This document shows positions 23,701-54,000 of a stretch of 64,000 nt of DNA, piece by piece. Under the pieces are notes generated by a model that saw nothing but the letters and a program-made list of their open reading frames with translations, had not been told where the DNA came from and ran no database searches. Position 1 is the stretch's first letter; every line of letters starts with the position of its first letter. The stretch comes from Lutjanus erythropterus. Taxonomy: Eukaryota; Chordata; Actinopteri; Lutjaniformes; Lutjanidae. Both the position numbers and the translations under genes were made by a program. Where the stretch lies: positions 17,599,221 through 17,663,220 of the forward strand of contig CM034607.1 of NCBI GenBank assembly GCA_020091685.1, read 5' to 3'.

Positions 23701-26700
23701 TCCTACATAAAACTGCTCACTACAAGGTCTGTGGATTATCTTGACCAACTGAGGCATGATTTCAGGAAAGAGGCATTGCTGTTGAGTTTTTCAAATGCAT
23801 TTTTTAATGCATTATATTCTAGAGAAGGCAGACATCTCCAAAACTCTGCAATTCTCACTTAAACAACCTAGATGGATAAATAGCATTATAAGTAAGAGAA
23901 AAAATATGTATTTCTGATTTGTGGGTGAACTGTCCCCTTTAAAGATGGAAAACACACCAAAACTGATGGCTGGTCCTACTAGAAACTGCTTTGGTTTCAT
24001 TGTGCAAAAAGAGAGATGGTAAATATTTAGGACTTCAAAAGGACCTCTCAGCCATCCTTAGTTTGCTTTCAGACCAAAAGAACCCTTGCATTTAGCAAAA
24101 AGCTATAACTGTACAAAAAGACAGGATTTTACAATTCCTGAAAAAGAAAACTCAAACCATGTCAAATCCTTGCTAGGCAACCCTGTATTTTTTGCTGAAG
24201 CCCTCTGCCAACACAGTCCTCTCATTGAAATGAATCGGGAAGCTGCATTTTTTGGTCTGAACATGACTTTAGGGTGTGCACAAAACAACGAGGCCTTTCA
24301 CCCCAGCGCAGTCATTATCCATCTTACACCCAGGATACGCCGCCCACTTCTACGTATGTGTGATGGCTACCTCAACTGAACTACTGCAGATCACATGCGT
24401 GTGGTGTTCACACAGACAGCCACGATGCTGGTTTTGCTTGCCCTATCTTTCTACACTGAGTTTTCCAGAAGAATTGAGAAGAAAAGTGATTAGTTGTAAC
24501 CAGAAACCAATCAGTGATTTTTGGGCTGTGTGGCTGCTCTAACCAGTGAAAGGAGACACATCATCCCCATATATGATTATTTGGAGGTCTTATAGAATAG
24601 GTTTACATGTTTTAATGTTCAGAAAACCATGTTTTTTTTATTTGCAGCATTTACTCATGACATCATAAGAGGAGGCAAACCTGAGTGGTGTTTTGGAAGA
24701 GTTATTTTCTGAAAGGTGGTGCCAGCGAAGACAGGATGGTCTTTTCTTAAATTTGAGATACAACTGAGATTTTTTGACTTAGGTGCCAAAATGAAAAGCA
24801 AGAGATGCAAGATGCACGCATTGCTCAGGCAAGCAGAGTGTCCCAGGCGTAATTTGTAATGTAAATATATTTATTAATGAAAAATTGTTAACTGTTGCTA
24901 GGCTTCTGAGCAAAGACTATTAAATCCTCAGCTGTGGAAAAGACTCAATTTGCCCACTGTTTGATTACATAGGCATTTGTCAATTATACAAATGTAGTTT
25001 GATTTCACCATTTAGCAAATCTTCTAGTTTCACACAAGAAAATAACCAGCACATCCAGACTCTAGTTAAGCCGTAGAAGAAGCATAGTTCCCCTGACACC
25101 ATACATCTTTTGAATACTAATTACAGAGCACAATAATCTAATGCATCAAGAGTAGTATGTTTTGAATAATTGTGTAAATGTATGTGGATCTGAACACCTG
25201 GGCTGTTGAGGCTGGCCAGCAGGTTGCTGTAGGAGGACACAGTCTGGCTGGACAAGGTCGAGAAAGAAGGTGCAGAGGTGAGCTGGGGCTGCTTGGTGGC
25301 AAAATGACCAGAAAAAGAGGGAGCCACCTTACTGAAAAAGAGAGAAGACATAACTAACACCAAGTCGTACATCATATTAAATAGAAGTAATTCTTACCAC
25401 GTGAGAACAAAAAAAAAAAAACTTAAGGACAATACTTGTTGGGTGCCGGTGTGGGCAGGGTGTGATTGATTTGTTGATGGGGGCTGCTGCTGCATCCAGC
25501 TCTACTCTGTCTGTGTTCGACTTTTGATGTGATGGAGCGCTCCACCTTCCTCCACTTAGCCCTGCGGTTCTGAAACCAGACCTGTGACACAGAAACATGC
25601 AGGGGCAGACAATAAAATGGATACTGGGAGAAAATGAGAGAGGGTCAGGGTGAGCAAATTGCAGGTGACGATGCGTGAGTGGGAAGGTGAAAGAAAAGAA
25701 TCAACACAAATACACCATGTAAGTAATGTAAAGGAGCCATAAGGGACATTTCTCAGGGGATCAAAAGAGGAAGATGGCTGTCTAACCATAATTCTTTGAG
25801 GTGTGACACCAACTGACGCAGCAATGACTTTCCTCTTTTCTGCATCGGGATAGTGGTCCTCCTGGAACAAGGCCTCCAAATGCTCCAACTGATCTGCTCA
25901 CACATGCACACAAACACAAAACACAGGTCAGTTAGTAAAATGTGAACACATCTGGACAAACTGAAATTTCAGTTACCAGTGCTGTAGAGCGTTCGTGTTT
26001 TCTTCTTCGGTGCAGGCGGCAACAGGCAGGGGTCCACAGTCTCTAACCCCGGCAGCAGAGAGAAGCTCAGGGCCCGGCCTCGACCCCTGGTGCTGTAGCA
26101 GATGGAACGTCGAGTAGAATAGACCTGGGTTATTTCCATCTGCCATGAAGCGGAAAAACATTACCTTAACCTTACCTTAACATTACCACTCATCACTCAG
26201 TCACATTCAGTTAAATACTGTCTGATTTACTGTGTTTTTCTCATACTAATAATCACATTTCTTTAAAGCTGAACACAACTTTGGACGATTTAAAAAAAAA
26301 CAACTGAGGTGCAGATGCCAGCAGGGATCTTTATCTGCCAAAACACTGCTGAGGTGCACAAAGTGTACAGTTGAATGTTTCAGTCCACAAAAACCAATGC
26401 AACAATGATTTTTCTGGAAATAAAAGTTGGTTCTGGAGCAGTAGTTCAGGAGAGAAGTAATTATTTTTCAGTTTTTTCTATATACTTTTTTCCTGATATT
26501 GCTTTACTTCAGGGGTGTAAGTAATTAATTTTTTTGATTGAGCTGACATTATTTTCTTAATCAACCAATTGTTGTTTGGTCTACTGAATGCCAGAAACTA
26601 TAGAAAAATGCCAATTGCTGTTTCCTAGAGCCCAAGGTCATGTCTTCAAATTGCTCCGTTAGTCTGGCTGCCTACAATCCAAAGTTATTCAATTTAGGAT

Positions 26701-47338: not shown

Positions 47339-47505
47339 TTATGCGTAAAATTCCTCCTGCTTGTCTGGTTTCTGGTAGGTGACGGTGGCCTGTTTGGGCT
47401 CCTCCAGCGTGTAGCTGCCCTCGTCCTTCTTCTTCATCCTGTACACCAGCAACATCACCAGGAAGGCTGCGAACAAGGCGCCCACTACTCCTCCCACTAT
47501 CACCG
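47339..47505 (-). CDS. sdc3: sdc3 exon 5: transmembrane and cytoplasmic domains, stop
   Basis: Encodes [20 protein letters not shown], then [30 protein letters not shown] and EEFYA, with TAA at 47341-47339. The GGVVG sequence supplies the GxxxG dimerisation motif. It is nearly identical to mammalian SDC3. The acceptor is CTCTGCAG. Confidence 0.97.
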
Positions 47506-48029
47506 CTGCAGAGAGACAGAAAGACAGGGTGAATATCTTAAGCAACAGAACATTATCCCCCAAAACAGTCAGAAATACACATAAACAAACTATTAACAAA
47601 ACACAAGAGCCACTGTGACATCCTGCAGCAGACAACATCACAACAAACACAGAGCTTCAGACAGTCTGAAAGTTATGGAAGCCCGTTTCCTCCAGTAAAA
47701 AAAAAAAATCCCCATAGTAGAAGTCATAACTGTGAGATAAAAAGTCATAATGTGGTTATATCATGGTGGTTTTTAATGCAATGCTGCCTGAGGGGTCAAA
47801 GGTCACAGATCAATTATTATCCAGATATCTAAATCTTTTAATGATATTATGGATTGTAGATGCAGATGATGAAATCCTGAAGTTGTCATTGTACTCTGTT
47901 AGATGTCTATGTCTGTACATATGCTCTTCTTTTACGGGCAGAAATGGGCTTCCATAGAAAGCAGAGCAAAGCTACCACAGAATCACTATCAGTTAGCTGC
48001 TAAGTGAAGACTGATGAGCCTGAATGTGC

Positions 48030-48063
<34 letters not shown>

Positions 48064-51000
48064 ATCACTTTGTGCTAAACTGCAGCCCTGCAGCGCTACA
48101 TAGTAGTTCAGCCTGATGGGGTTGGTGTAACCAGTCCGCAGCAGCTGCACCTTCTCCTACACACATCACTAATGAACTCTTGCTGTGTGAGATAGATTAA
48201 TGTGTGGTCATCAAATGGAAAAGAAAAACTTTCCCTCATTAAACTAATTGGTATTGACGCCAACACAGAGCACAGTTTATTTTCCAAAAATTCTTGAGGA
48301 ACACTTTGTTTCCGTTCACTGAGTGGGAGGTGTTTACTTTGTTTATTCCATTACTGCCAATATCAGAGTGCATCGGCTGGGGTATTAAAAAAAAAAGTAA
48401 AACTTTTTACCAAGCACTGTCACAACAAAACTATTCACCACTCTTGACTTCTCACACCATTTCTTGTAATTAAATCTTATAAAAAAAAAAAATTAGTTAG
48501 ACTTTTACGTCAGATCATGCCAGTTTTGTGTTATACTGTGCATAAATGTGTACTTTTACCATACCTGATTTTACTGCGAAAGACAATTGTGATTTTGGAC
48601 TGAAGAAATATTAATTGAATCCTTTCAAGCGCAGCATTTGCAGCTTCTCATAAAAAAGACATGATGAACTACTTTTCCTTGAATTCATAATATCAGTTCT
48701 TTTTTTACTCACTAAGACGAAGATTTTTAGGCAATGTGGGTGCACCACATTGGTCCAGCTATTGGACTCACTATTTTTTTATCTAGCGTCACTAACAAAT
48801 CTAAAAGTTTCAATTCGTCAACACAAAAGTAATGACGTTGAAATGAGCCTCAGCTGTACAACTGTATGCTGAATATCTTGGAAATACTCTGTGTATATAC
48901 ACACAGATCCATTTACAGTATTCCTAATTTATCTCATTTATTCTTATTTTATTTTACTATATTTACCCTTGAGTTGCTACTTTTTCCCCTTGTGCTGCTG
49001 TGTCAAATTGAATTGCCAGTACAGGGGATCAACAGAGGTACAATTTATCTTATCTGTGCTTTGTGTTCAGCACTAGCTATATGCAAATATTAACATGGTA
49101 AACATGATTAACATTATATCTGCTAAACATCAGCATGTGGTTGTGTTTAGCCTTCTAATATTAGCATTTAGCTCAAAGTGCAGCCTCACAGAACTGTTAG
49201 GATGGCTGTAGACTCTTTGTCTTGTTAAAATATTAAAGCAACATCCACAGTACTGTAAAACCTTGTATAGATTTGGGGGTAAAACAGGTAAAATTGCAAT
49301 AAATTTTAAGGGAAAAACAATTTGAAGAAAAGACAACTGTAACTAAGTACTGCTCCTGTTTAATGGTGGCTGGCAACCAACGTATTAAGTGCATTACTGC
49401 CACCTTCTGCTCTGGAGTATGGACCAGAGATTAAATCCAACTCATTAATCCTGTCTCTCTACGTTAAATAAAGCTCTACTGTTCAACCCACTTGGCAGGT
49501 TCATTAAAGTTTTAATGCTGAGCTCCTGAACTCCTGCCTTCCTAAGTTCTTCCTTCATTTTCCTTTGTCTTTCTTGATCATACTTAGTACAATCTAAACA
49601 ATCTAAGCCTGATCGAAATTAATGTTGTTGTTTATTCATTAAAACTTAAAACAAAATTACAGAATTTCCAACTCTCAAAGTCTTTTAAATCAGTGTGAAA
49701 AGTCAAAGGAGAAATATGTAAAACTTGTTTGTACTAAATCATAAAATGGCCATGATATATGAAACTTATACTGCCAAATACTGGCTTCTTCGACAACAAC
49801 ACTACAGTCAGCATGTTCTCCTTTGAGATGTCCGTTCTGGTCTGGAACGTCTGTATTTGTTTACCTGTTTCACATTTATTTGCGTTAAAATTAATGCTGA
49901 ATGTTCGCCAAATACATAAATGTATGTTTATGAGTTGTAACTTATCATTAATAATCTTTTAGAAGGAGTTTATAATGGTTAAATTAGGCAAAATCGTAAT
50001 GGAGTCTGGCAGGCAGTAAGACCGGCAGTCACTGAACTCCAACTCGTGTATTTTCAGAACAGTGGGCTTTTGTTTCCGGGATAATGGGCTTAACTTTACA
50101 AAAACAGACAATTGACAGTTATATAGCACTCGAACTCACTTAATATATTGTCTATGGCTCTATGGCTAGATTAAAGTGACAACACCAGCACAGCTCTGCG
50201 TGTATGTGTGTGCTTGACTTGTACAGTTGTAACTTGGTTCTAGTCTAAAATCTGTTGCCTCCTGCTCTTTACCAATGACCAGGAAATCAGCGAAAACCAC
50301 CGCCAGCAGTCCACCAATCAGAACAGCTGAAGGAAAGACAGAGAGCCAGTCAGGTCAGGCAAGTTGGCTGCTCGCTCACTTTCTACAACAGCTCTTTGGG
50401 ATAAGGAGAGGGGGGGCACTTGAAAAGAAATTGGATTTGCCCAGAGGGAAAATGATGAGAAAAAGAGGGGAGAAAGGAGGGGTTGGACAACCCAAGAAAG
50501 AAGAGGATTGCTTGTTCTCAATGGGTCAAACGGGGCTAAGCAGCACATTCACTTATCGTGATGAATCTGCACTACGTGAACGCGAGTTACTGCCAGTTTA
50601 TCTTAGCAGCTCCCAGTAAGCAGGGAAAGAATACAGGAGGCAACGGGGAAGTGTCATCTGTTGATCTATGAGGTAACTATCAAGTGGTTTATGTGGCAGA
50701 AAGGCAGACAAGATCAGACACACAAGCAGTGAGACAAAGACAGGGACAAAAACATACAAAAAAACCCAAACATTATTAACATTAACATTACAGACAGATA
50801 CCAACCTATCAAGACCTCTTTTCTCTCCAGGATGTTCTTCTGTGGCAGCTGGGCAGCAGAGCTTCCTCCGTCCACCGTGTTGCCGATCAGATCGGGATCC
50901 ACCGGCATGATACCTCGACCAAGATCATTACGGCGATCATCACGGATCTCAAAATCTCCACTTGGCCCTGCAGCGCCCACGTCGTTGTTACCCTCCTGAG

Positions 51001-54000
51001 ACAGAGAGAAAAAAGTGAGTCTAATGACAGGAAATTTACATTCAATGTAATCACATTTGTTCCGCTGAAACTTATCCAAACCAATGCAAACAGAGAACTT
51101 TCCATGGCATCGTTGTTCCATGGAACCGCTGTTCGCTGTTGAAACAATGAGTCTCTGTATGTTCTGATTGGCGGAAAGTTGCATATTGTCCAACACATAT
51201 ACACACTTCATAAAATCTGGCAGCTTAATTACAATGTGGAAAACCAGACAAATCTAAATGCATCATGCTTTAATGCAGCTCTGCTGCAAATAAACAGAAG
51301 CACACCAATCAGAGAAATGGTTCTGGTCTGTAAATAATTAAGCTGTCAGTGTTAAAGAGGCAGTTAGGAGTGGGGTTGGATATCAGACCTCAATAGTTTA
51401 TTGGTGCAGACTAAAATGAGTCCATTAGTGCAGCACATTGAAAAACCCAGTATGTGAATCCTTATTCACTTAGTCTTTGATCAGATAGTTCCTGATTTAA
51501 ATCATCATTTTACCCAGTTAGACTCTATTTTATTTAGCCAAAGTTCATGTATGGCTGCTTGTGTTTATGCACCATTTAAAGAGTGCGGCTGGAAATATTC
51601 CTTATTTTGTATTGCCAACAAATCTCATAAAAATGACCAGAACCAACAATGAATTGATCGCTTAAGTACTGTCTATGTAGCCAAACCCTGATATAGCGCA
51701 TATTCTTCTGTGTCATCGAGCTCCAAAAACTAAGCCATATATGGCTGACAAAACGATTTCATAAACCTATTAAACTGAGATCAGCATCTGCAAGATTTAT
51801 GTCTTCACTGGGAATAAATGGACTTGGGGTTCAGTGACAGGGTAGGGAAGTCTGAAAGAATTACGTAGTCAAAGTATTCAGCTGGCCTCTGCATTGTTGG
51901 TTTTGGTCTTTTCATGGGATTTGTTGATAATACGCACAATATAGAATAACACCAGGCTCATCATTAAACATTTGAGAATTTTGGCCTCTTTTGTTAAGGG
52001 ATTTGTTTTGAAATATATACTGAGTTGCTTACTTTCTGGGAGTGAGATAAGATATCACTCCCATGTCTGTACATTAATGTTCAGTAGTTAGTTTTCTCCT
52101 ATTTTGTTCCTAACCTGAACAAAATCAACTAATCAGAGTCGGGAGGAGTTTCTAACACAGGTTGCTTGGACCGAGCAAACATGTTGGTATTTGACAACCT
52201 GTAAATCAGATTCAACAATGAACTATCTTTCTCTAGCTTAGCTAGCTAGCTAGCTAGCTTAACATAAAGACCGTAAACAAAGGGAAACAGCCAGCCTCGT
52301 ACTGACCACATGCTTCACTTTGTTTCTGAGAGTGAGATAAGACAATTGATACTACTCCTATTTCTATATGTTAAGTACAGAGCTGGAGACTGGATGCGAT
52401 TAGCCTAGCTTAGCATAAAGACTGTGAACAAAGGGAAACAGCTAGCCCAGTACTGACCATATACTTCACTTTCTTTCTGAGAATGAGATAAGGTGATTGC
52501 TACTACTCCCCTGTTTATACGTTAAATACAGAGCTGGAGACCATGATTAGCTTAGCTTAGCATAAAGTCTGTGAACAAAGGGAAGCAGCTAGCCTGGATC
52601 TGCCCAAACTTCAAAAATACACTTAACTGCATCTCTAAAGCTCACCAGTTACGATGCTGTATGTTGTTGTTTGTGCATAAACAGTCATATAAAAACAACA
52701 GTTTGTGGTTTTGAGGGGGAGTTATGTGCTACAAATAATTCTTGGCAAACAAAGCTCGGTGAAGTGACTTTCCAGAATCTTGTCATCACTGTGACTTCGC
52801 CAGGCAAGTTGCTTGGGTGAATGTGTAACTGTTGTTCATCAGGAAAGTTACACCATGTAACTCCCTCTAAAAAATGGACATTTTTCCATGGGAGGATGTT
52901 ATTATTATCACTTCCCACTCCTTGCTGTGTTGAGTTTCTTCTTTTCCTGTGGGGGTGATGAGGTCAGATGTGGACAACAAATATAAACGCTATATAAAAA
53001 TAATAATGTGCGTTTGCTGACTGAACTTACTGGTGAAGTTGTGGGCTGCTGTGGGCGGGTCGTTCTCTCCCTTGGCACCGCCTGAGTGGCTGTCGTCATG
53101 GGAACCCTGGGCCTGAATGGCACCCTGGTCTTGACAGTGGTGGTGGCAGGAGTAGTAGTGGTGGGCGCAGCTGTGGTGGGCTCAGGGGTGGTCTCTGCTG
53201 TGGTGGTGGGCGTGTCTTCTTCTGTGGTGGTCTCCATGTCGAAGCCTGGGAAATACGACGTAGGCTCAGGTGACAGGTACACGTCCTCTTCTTCTTCAGT
53301 GGTGCTCAGGTCATCCGAGCCAGCAGAGGGTGCTGCACTCTCTGCAGTGCTGATTGCTGGGTTGGTGGTCACCACAGGGACGGCAGCAGGGGATCGTGGA
53401 GCGGCAGTGGTCTGGGCGGCAGCAGCAGCCCTGATTCGCTCCAGCTCTCTCTCTCTCTCCAGCTCACGCTCTCTCTGTCTCTCTCTCTCTTTCTCTCGCT
53501 CTCTTTCTCGTTCCCTCTCTCGCTCACGCTCTCTCTCCCTCTCCCGCTCTCTCTCCATCTCCCTCACCCGCTCCCTCTCTCGTTCTCTCTCTCTCTCCCT
53601 CTCCAGCTGTTTCTCCCTCTCCCTCTCTCTCTCCAGTTCCTTCTGCCTCTCTTGCTCTCTCTCCCTCTCTCTCTCTTCCTCCCTCTCTCTCTCCTTCTCC
53701 AGCTCTCTGTCCCTCTCCCAGAAAACGCCGCTCTCTCCATCGGCCTCGGTGGGCAGCGGGGTGGCGATGGGGTCCTCTGGGTTAGGGCTCGGCTCAGCCG
53801 CAGGTGAGGCGGATGGGGCGGGGCTGGTGGCCTGCGTGGTGGAGAGGAGGAGGGGCTCTTCTGTGGTGAAGGATGCACCTGCCGATGTCGGCCTCATTCT
53901 GATCTCAGGAACTGGAGATGAGAGAAAAGAGGAGAGTTTTAAATATAAAACTTAATTAAAGTGTAACTGCACTCCAGATCTGAGCCTGACTCCACCCACT

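Follow-up and report, generated by a model that had tools for sequence, protein, structure and literature searches.

The membrane helix drives dimerisation and is one of the best conserved portions of syndecans. Tandemly duplicated alternative exons are adjacent and homologous exons that have an equal entry phase and in which the similarity is limited to the exon. Cleavage of syndecan-3 is, going by its title, reportedly the subject of a study by Schulz from 2003. Two papers describe GxxxG as common to syndecan transmembrane domains (PMC8347082, PMC8593224). In the former, dimerisation and signalling were weaker when the glycine or phenylalanine residues of the syndecan-2 helix were mutated, and the glycine mutant also showed defects in fly and worm (PMC8347082). 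The part available of a study on horse CEACAM1-related splicing at transmembrane exons (PMC5856374) likewise concerns a surface receptor gene, splicing and a transmembrane exon. Among the matches listed, open-access titles and abstract starts held no description of a second syndecan transmembrane exon, and a text search of open-access papers found no occurrence of the peptide strings. Word searches in the text available of a comparative syndecan paper (PMC1464127) returned no mention of "exon" or "splice" and one of "intron", and in that of a review (PMC8061687) no mention of "exon" and one of "splic", which concerned CD44.

Here, we describe a 54-nt duplicate of the transmembrane start in sdc3 of Lutjanus erythropterus, identified in a window, i.e. 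the whole stretch of DNA analysed, of 64 kb. With tandemly duplicated alternative exons, the sdc3 case shares adjacency, homology, entry phase and exon-confined similarity; it differs from them in that the copy is a partial exon and in that its source is the last coding exon of the gene, so that strict mutual exclusion would be impossible without another acceptor or polyA site. With the canonical syndecan transmembrane exon (PF01034), the duplicate shares the entry phase, the start residue and the pattern AV..GG.....FA.FLV; by contrast, it is only 54 nt long, has its own donor, lacks the cytoplasmic domain, has GxxxA in place of GxxxG, and carries an Asp at position 14. Unlike the horse CEACAM1 case, as far as the text available of PMC5856374 goes, the sdc3 segment is an extra in-frame copy and a putative exon. 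The features of the locus are as follows (a slash marks an exon border):

50806..50995, minus strand: juxtamembrane exon 4 of sdc3; 3' end LERKEVLI plus G, donor TAG/GTTGGT; 5' border CTCAG/GAGGG placed by eye only
47506..50805, minus strand: intron 4 of sdc3, 3300 nt, which houses the duplicate
50327..50360, minus strand: acceptor region of the duplicate, with two CTGAC branch-like sites, the tract CTCTCTGTCTTTCCTTC and AG
50273..50326, minus strand: duplicated transmembrane exon, 54 nt, phase 1-1, 18 residues
50267..50275, minus strand: donor of the duplicate, TTG/GTAAAG, 4.41 bits
50166..50272, minus strand: read-through frame past the duplicate's donor, 35 residues (GKEQ...VTLI), then the stop TAG at 50168-50166
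49970..50123, minus strand: part of a high-copy dispersed repeat, starting ~150 nt 3' of the duplicate's donor
47465..47473, minus strand: possible internal exon-5 acceptor TTCGCAG/CC, frame-compatible with the duplicate, exonic from 47466; speculative
47339..47505, minus strand: coding part of the canonical terminal exon 5, with transmembrane start, cytoplasmic domain and stop TAA

We take the gene to be syndecan-3 from the sequence of the cytoplasmic variable region. In a profile search, exon 5 together with the end of exon 4 matched Pfam Syndecan (PF01034) with 114.6 bits against a cut-off of 25.2. Upstream of exon 4, a long open frame at 52908-53897 (minus strand) is possibly part of the sdc3 ectodomain; it contains an extended Glu-Arg repeat (ERERERE...) in a Thr/Pro-rich context and had no Pfam match. 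Downstream of sdc3, a partial homeodomain frame is present at 25556-25885 (minus strand; Pfam Homeodomain 24.9 bits, cut-off 22.9).

The initial annotation had proposed that a 54-bp segment in phase 1-1 lies between the juxtamembrane and transmembrane exons and that it encodes a paralogue of the canonical transmembrane start. Coordinates, borders and phase were borne out by the sequence: the minus-strand borders read ...CTCTCTGTCTTTCCTTCAG/CTGTTC...GTCATTG/GTAAAG with no stop in between, the final G of exon 4 (50806) supplies the missing base of the first codon, and the last G of the duplicate forms a codon with the start of exon 5 (47505). The paralogy also held, i.e. the duplicate is colinear with the canonical start, 9 of the 18 amino acids are identical, and a match of this quality has an expectation of 1e-7 to 4e-10. 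Between the two segments, 32 of 54 nucleotides are identical and the BLOSUM62 score is 51, compared to a canonical self-score of 83. The translation is a hydrophobic helix colinear with AVIxGGxxGxxFAxFLxx. The proposed change from GGVVG to GGLLA is likewise present, and the GxxxG dimer motif is absent from the duplicate; the loss is less complete than first described, as the small-xxx-small spacing is kept as GxxxA together with both Phe residues (positions 12 and 15).

The likeness is confined to the exon. At the DNA level, the alignment of the duplicate to the canonical segment was equalled by 1 of 300 shuffles, while no similarity was detected between the 200-nt flanks of the two (upstream P 0.24, downstream P 0.62; 300 shuffles). 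Similarity ends at the donor, GKEQ being unlike LLVY. By eye, the read-through tail was suspected to be a homologue of the syndecan cytoplasmic domain; shuffling gave no support for this (local P 0.50, global P 0.67), and the idea was rejected. Exon 4 end, duplicate and read-through tail together reached 19.0 bits with Pfam Syndecan (E 0.0014), which is below the cut-off of 25.2 and includes part of exon 4 in the match.

We compared all 127,884 54-nt windows of the 64 kb, 63,942 on each strand and read in the phase of the duplicate, with the canonical start. Only the canonical exon outscores the duplicate (83 vs 51), and the best unrelated window scores 25. Among the 517 windows bounded by AG and GT (259 and 258 on the two strands), the next best after the duplicate scores 9. 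Using an exact Markov calculation with the dinucleotide statistics of the intron, the number of such matches expected in intron 4 is 1.1e-7, or 4.2e-10 if AG and GT are required; with the base statistics of the whole window, these values are 1.4e-7 and 5.4e-10. The calculation predicts 1.2 windows scoring at least 25 per 128,000, and one unrelated window was observed. Judged by these comparisons, the duplicate is almost certainly homologous to the canonical transmembrane start. An ATG open frame of 114 aa runs antisense to the duplicate (50275-50619, plus strand) and is probably due to chance.

The claim of good splice signals stood for the acceptor and less so for the donor. On a crude home-made score covering intron 4 and the first part of exon 5, the duplicate's acceptor ranks first of 232 AGs and the canonical acceptor third, and the branch-like CTGAC sites have their A at 50350 and 50355, i.e. 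24 and 29 nt 5' of the exon. The donor has 4.41 of a possible 12.95 bits on a Shapiro-Senapathy table and ranks 14th of 210 intron GTs, with 13 others higher; it has A at +5 and equals the exon 4 donor (4.45 bits) in strength. The segment has the features of a tandem exon, i.e. similarity beyond chance to the neighbouring exon, the same entry phase, its own acceptor and donor, and a length of 54 nt that is a multiple of 3. Within 300 nt of the duplicate, GCATG (RBFOX) and ACTAAY (QKI) motifs are absent, and raw counts gave one CTCTCT and several TCTT.

We searched the 937.6-Mb assembly with the 121-nt duplicate locus, and its sole match was itself. Intron 4 from ~50123 to at least 49970 is a dispersed repeat; of 3168 first-look candidates for other copies, 39 were scored, spread over many contigs and 81-86% identical; a repeat origin of the duplicate exon is unsupported, as the 121-nt query matches only itself although this repeat starts ~150 nt downstream. 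Two weak genome matches were dropped, one on C15 (E 0.68) and one on C7 (E 0.55), the latter with frames that looked unrelated. The canonical 63-aa peptide had no relative in plasmids, prokaryotic contigs or viral contigs, and a search of solved structures gave one match, a syndecan-2 chain (6ith).

The genome contains four further syndecan-like membrane exons, i.e. sdc2-type on C17 and C5, sdc4-type on C2 and a divergent one on C14. The last belongs to a fifth, divergent syndecan-like gene of the same assembly (C14:23328254-23328382, minus strand) with 41.7 bits to Pfam Syndecan (cut-off 25.2) and a tail, KDGYTLGQQRASDDYYHNHSRGEVVV, without the EFYA end. The duplicate is most similar to its own gene, with BLOSUM scores of 51 for sdc3, 46 for the C17 sdc2-type gene, 36 for the sdc4-type gene, 26 for the C5 gene and 17 for the C14 gene. 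We scanned the sense strand of the paralogues over 9.2, 9.5, 9.7 and 9.8 kb (C17, C5, C2 and C14, respectively), ending just past the membrane exons, so that intron 4 was covered and exon 4 reached in each. No comparable exon was detected in these scans, the best AG-GT windows scoring -8, 1, 4 and -4 against the sdc3 segment (n=38, 30, 42 and 33) and -10, 3, 4 and -6 against each gene's own segment. Against the gene's own segment, and besides each paralogue's own exon, the best window with or without splice sites scored 20 to 25. Intron 4 is ~5.8 kb long in the C17 gene and far shorter than the sdc3 intron 4 in the other three.

Identity between duplicate and canonical exon by codon position 1, 2 and 3 is 13, 15 and 5 of 18. 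For comparison, the corresponding values within the same genome are 12, 15 and 5 for sdc3 and the C17 sdc2-type gene, and 11, 14 and 7 for sdc3 and the sdc4-type gene. By this measure, the duplicate is as far from its source as syndecan paralogues are from each other, a comparison that measures divergence and gives no date. The duplicate was spotted via protein similarity, and a chance match found in this way also shows random third positions; therefore, the codon-position pattern speaks for age only after chance is excluded, which the size of the match alone does. With that provision, the codon positions mark the duplicate as old, with the protein pattern retained and the silent sites randomised.

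Several modest tests suggest long selection on the protein sequence encoded by the copy. In a model in which the copy drifts freely and the source changes at third positions only, a never-coding copy fits worse (likelihood-ratio P 0.022, best distance 0.42). In neutral simulations at a distance of 0.4, 5.1% of the copies hold the score and 1.3% hold the score as well as AG-GT. The open frame alone means little because 70% of these neutral copies are free of stops. Of the nine amino-acid replacements, eight remain hydrophobic or small (P 0.036). With a fish codon table, codon choice resembles that of coding sequence (lnLR 3.82, P 0.0026 under the intron model); it does so weakly with 532 local codons (lnLR 1.32), of which a repetitive open frame taken as coding supplies 290. 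The selection tests draw on 18 codons, give P values of 0.02 to 0.04, overlap in part and are compatible with a recent loss of use. In total, we conclude that the duplicate is real, homologous and splice-ready, that its long conservation as coding sequence has moderate support and that it probably has been long conserved.

The duplicate is a putative exon that is probably used at present in some form. For the form of this use, we give about an even chance on the sequence data to the best reading, an in-frame sdc3 cassette. In this reading, the opening 54 nt of the terminal transmembrane exon would have been copied in tandem long ago and the copy kept as an option between exons 4 and 5; skipping of the duplicate would give normal syndecan-3, and inclusion would place 18 residues between KEVLI and AVIVGG and extend the hydrophobic stretch from 25 to 43 residues. 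The cassette is the most economical reading because the donor, which is in phase, marks the end of the similarity and because the read-through tail is unlike a syndecan tail. By translation, we confirmed the ~43 hydrophobic residues in a row that the initial annotation had predicted on inclusion.

Against the cassette stand the mediocre donor, the Pfam score below the cut-off and two unusual features, namely an Asp within a membrane helix and a hydrophobic run of 43 residues. At 3.6 residues per turn, 18 residues amount by arithmetic to five helical turns, and because the insert would be five full turns, the rotational register of the dimer face and of the cytoplasmic domain would be kept; the helix would be ~27 angstroms longer with the cytoplasmic domain and the canonical GxxxG face unrotated. 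The canonical half, backed by RMKKK, would probably stay the membrane anchor; the other, added half, which contains the Asp, might lie in the outer leaflet or just outside. For the included form, the best 18-25-residue insertion window lies over the canonical half (-3.16 kcal/mol, compared to -2.70 for the canonical protein), and a window of the added half plus AVIV is compatible with insertion too (-2.46 kcal/mol); these energies alone do not decide between a single anchor and the hairpin that the initial annotation thought conceivable. Since RMKKK would end up on the wrong side in a hairpin, we prefer a single anchor that is extended outwards by a hydrophobic part. Inclusion would be expected to change dimerisation, shedding or intramembrane cleavage.

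Alternatively, the duplicate might be an old exon that was formerly used and whose splicing has since been lost. The frame and its hydrophobicity are intact, as are both splice sites, and the codon-position pattern and the conservative replacements also argue against such a loss; however, the donor is only moderate, 9 of the 18 residues differ, the Asp included, and, in simulations that start from the present canonical exon, 0.1 or 0.2 neutral substitutions per site leave the score in a fraction of 0.92 or 0.51 of cases and the score with both dinucleotides in 0.63 or 0.24. Altogether, we consider a dead exon unlikely but deserving of serious weight.

Less probable still is an alternative last exon, in which exon 4 would be joined to 50326, the donor left unused and the transcript ended by intronic polyadenylation, so that a 21-22-residue helix is followed by an unrelated 35-residue tail in place of the cytoplasmic domain. 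The 35 new residues predicted earlier for read-through past the donor are indeed encoded up to the TAG, the first G codon of this frame starting with the last base of the duplicate exon, and the duplicate alone is predicted to insert (-1.48 kcal/mol vs -2.70 for the canonical helix). Moreover, AATAAA is present at 49880 and 49636, and intron 4 contains 10 AATAAA/ATTAAA hexamers compared to 5.2 expected from base composition, but the sequence from ~50123 to at least 49970 is the high-copy repeat, and the hexamers beyond that stretch may be repeat-derived. The tail has no syndecan similarity, and the likeness ends at a usable, in-phase donor.

We regard as quite improbable an exchange in which the duplicate is spliced to the internal exon-5 acceptor (47466) and takes the place of 13 residues at the canonical start, with the normal tail kept. 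The junction would be in frame, the predicted helix has an insertion energy of -3.08 kcal/mol, and the hydrophobic stretch of 30 residues is closer to the 25 of the canonical protein than are the 43 that inclusion would give; nevertheless, the acceptor ranks 31st of 232 on the crude score, lies within conserved coding sequence and may be accidental. Finally, although T-rich introns contain membrane-like frames and the duplicate has 18 codons only, a chance hydrophobic frame that happens to sit between AG and GT is all but excluded by the expectation of 1e-7, or 4e-10 with the splice dinucleotides, and by the next AG-GT window scoring 9 vs 51.

Returning to the in-frame cassette and its possible exchange variant, we tentatively propose, at somewhat less than even confidence, that a fish lineage has for very long kept a second transmembrane exon in syndecan-3, one that carries a buried Asp, and that its regulated inclusion, adding five turns, or its swap via the internal exon-5 acceptor alters dimerisation, partner choice and intramembrane cleavage. 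If true, this natural alternative syndecan-3 helix would be an evolutionary experiment on the dimerisation code of the membrane helix, and it would offer a direct test of whether splicing tunes syndecan signalling or gamma-secretase cleavage.
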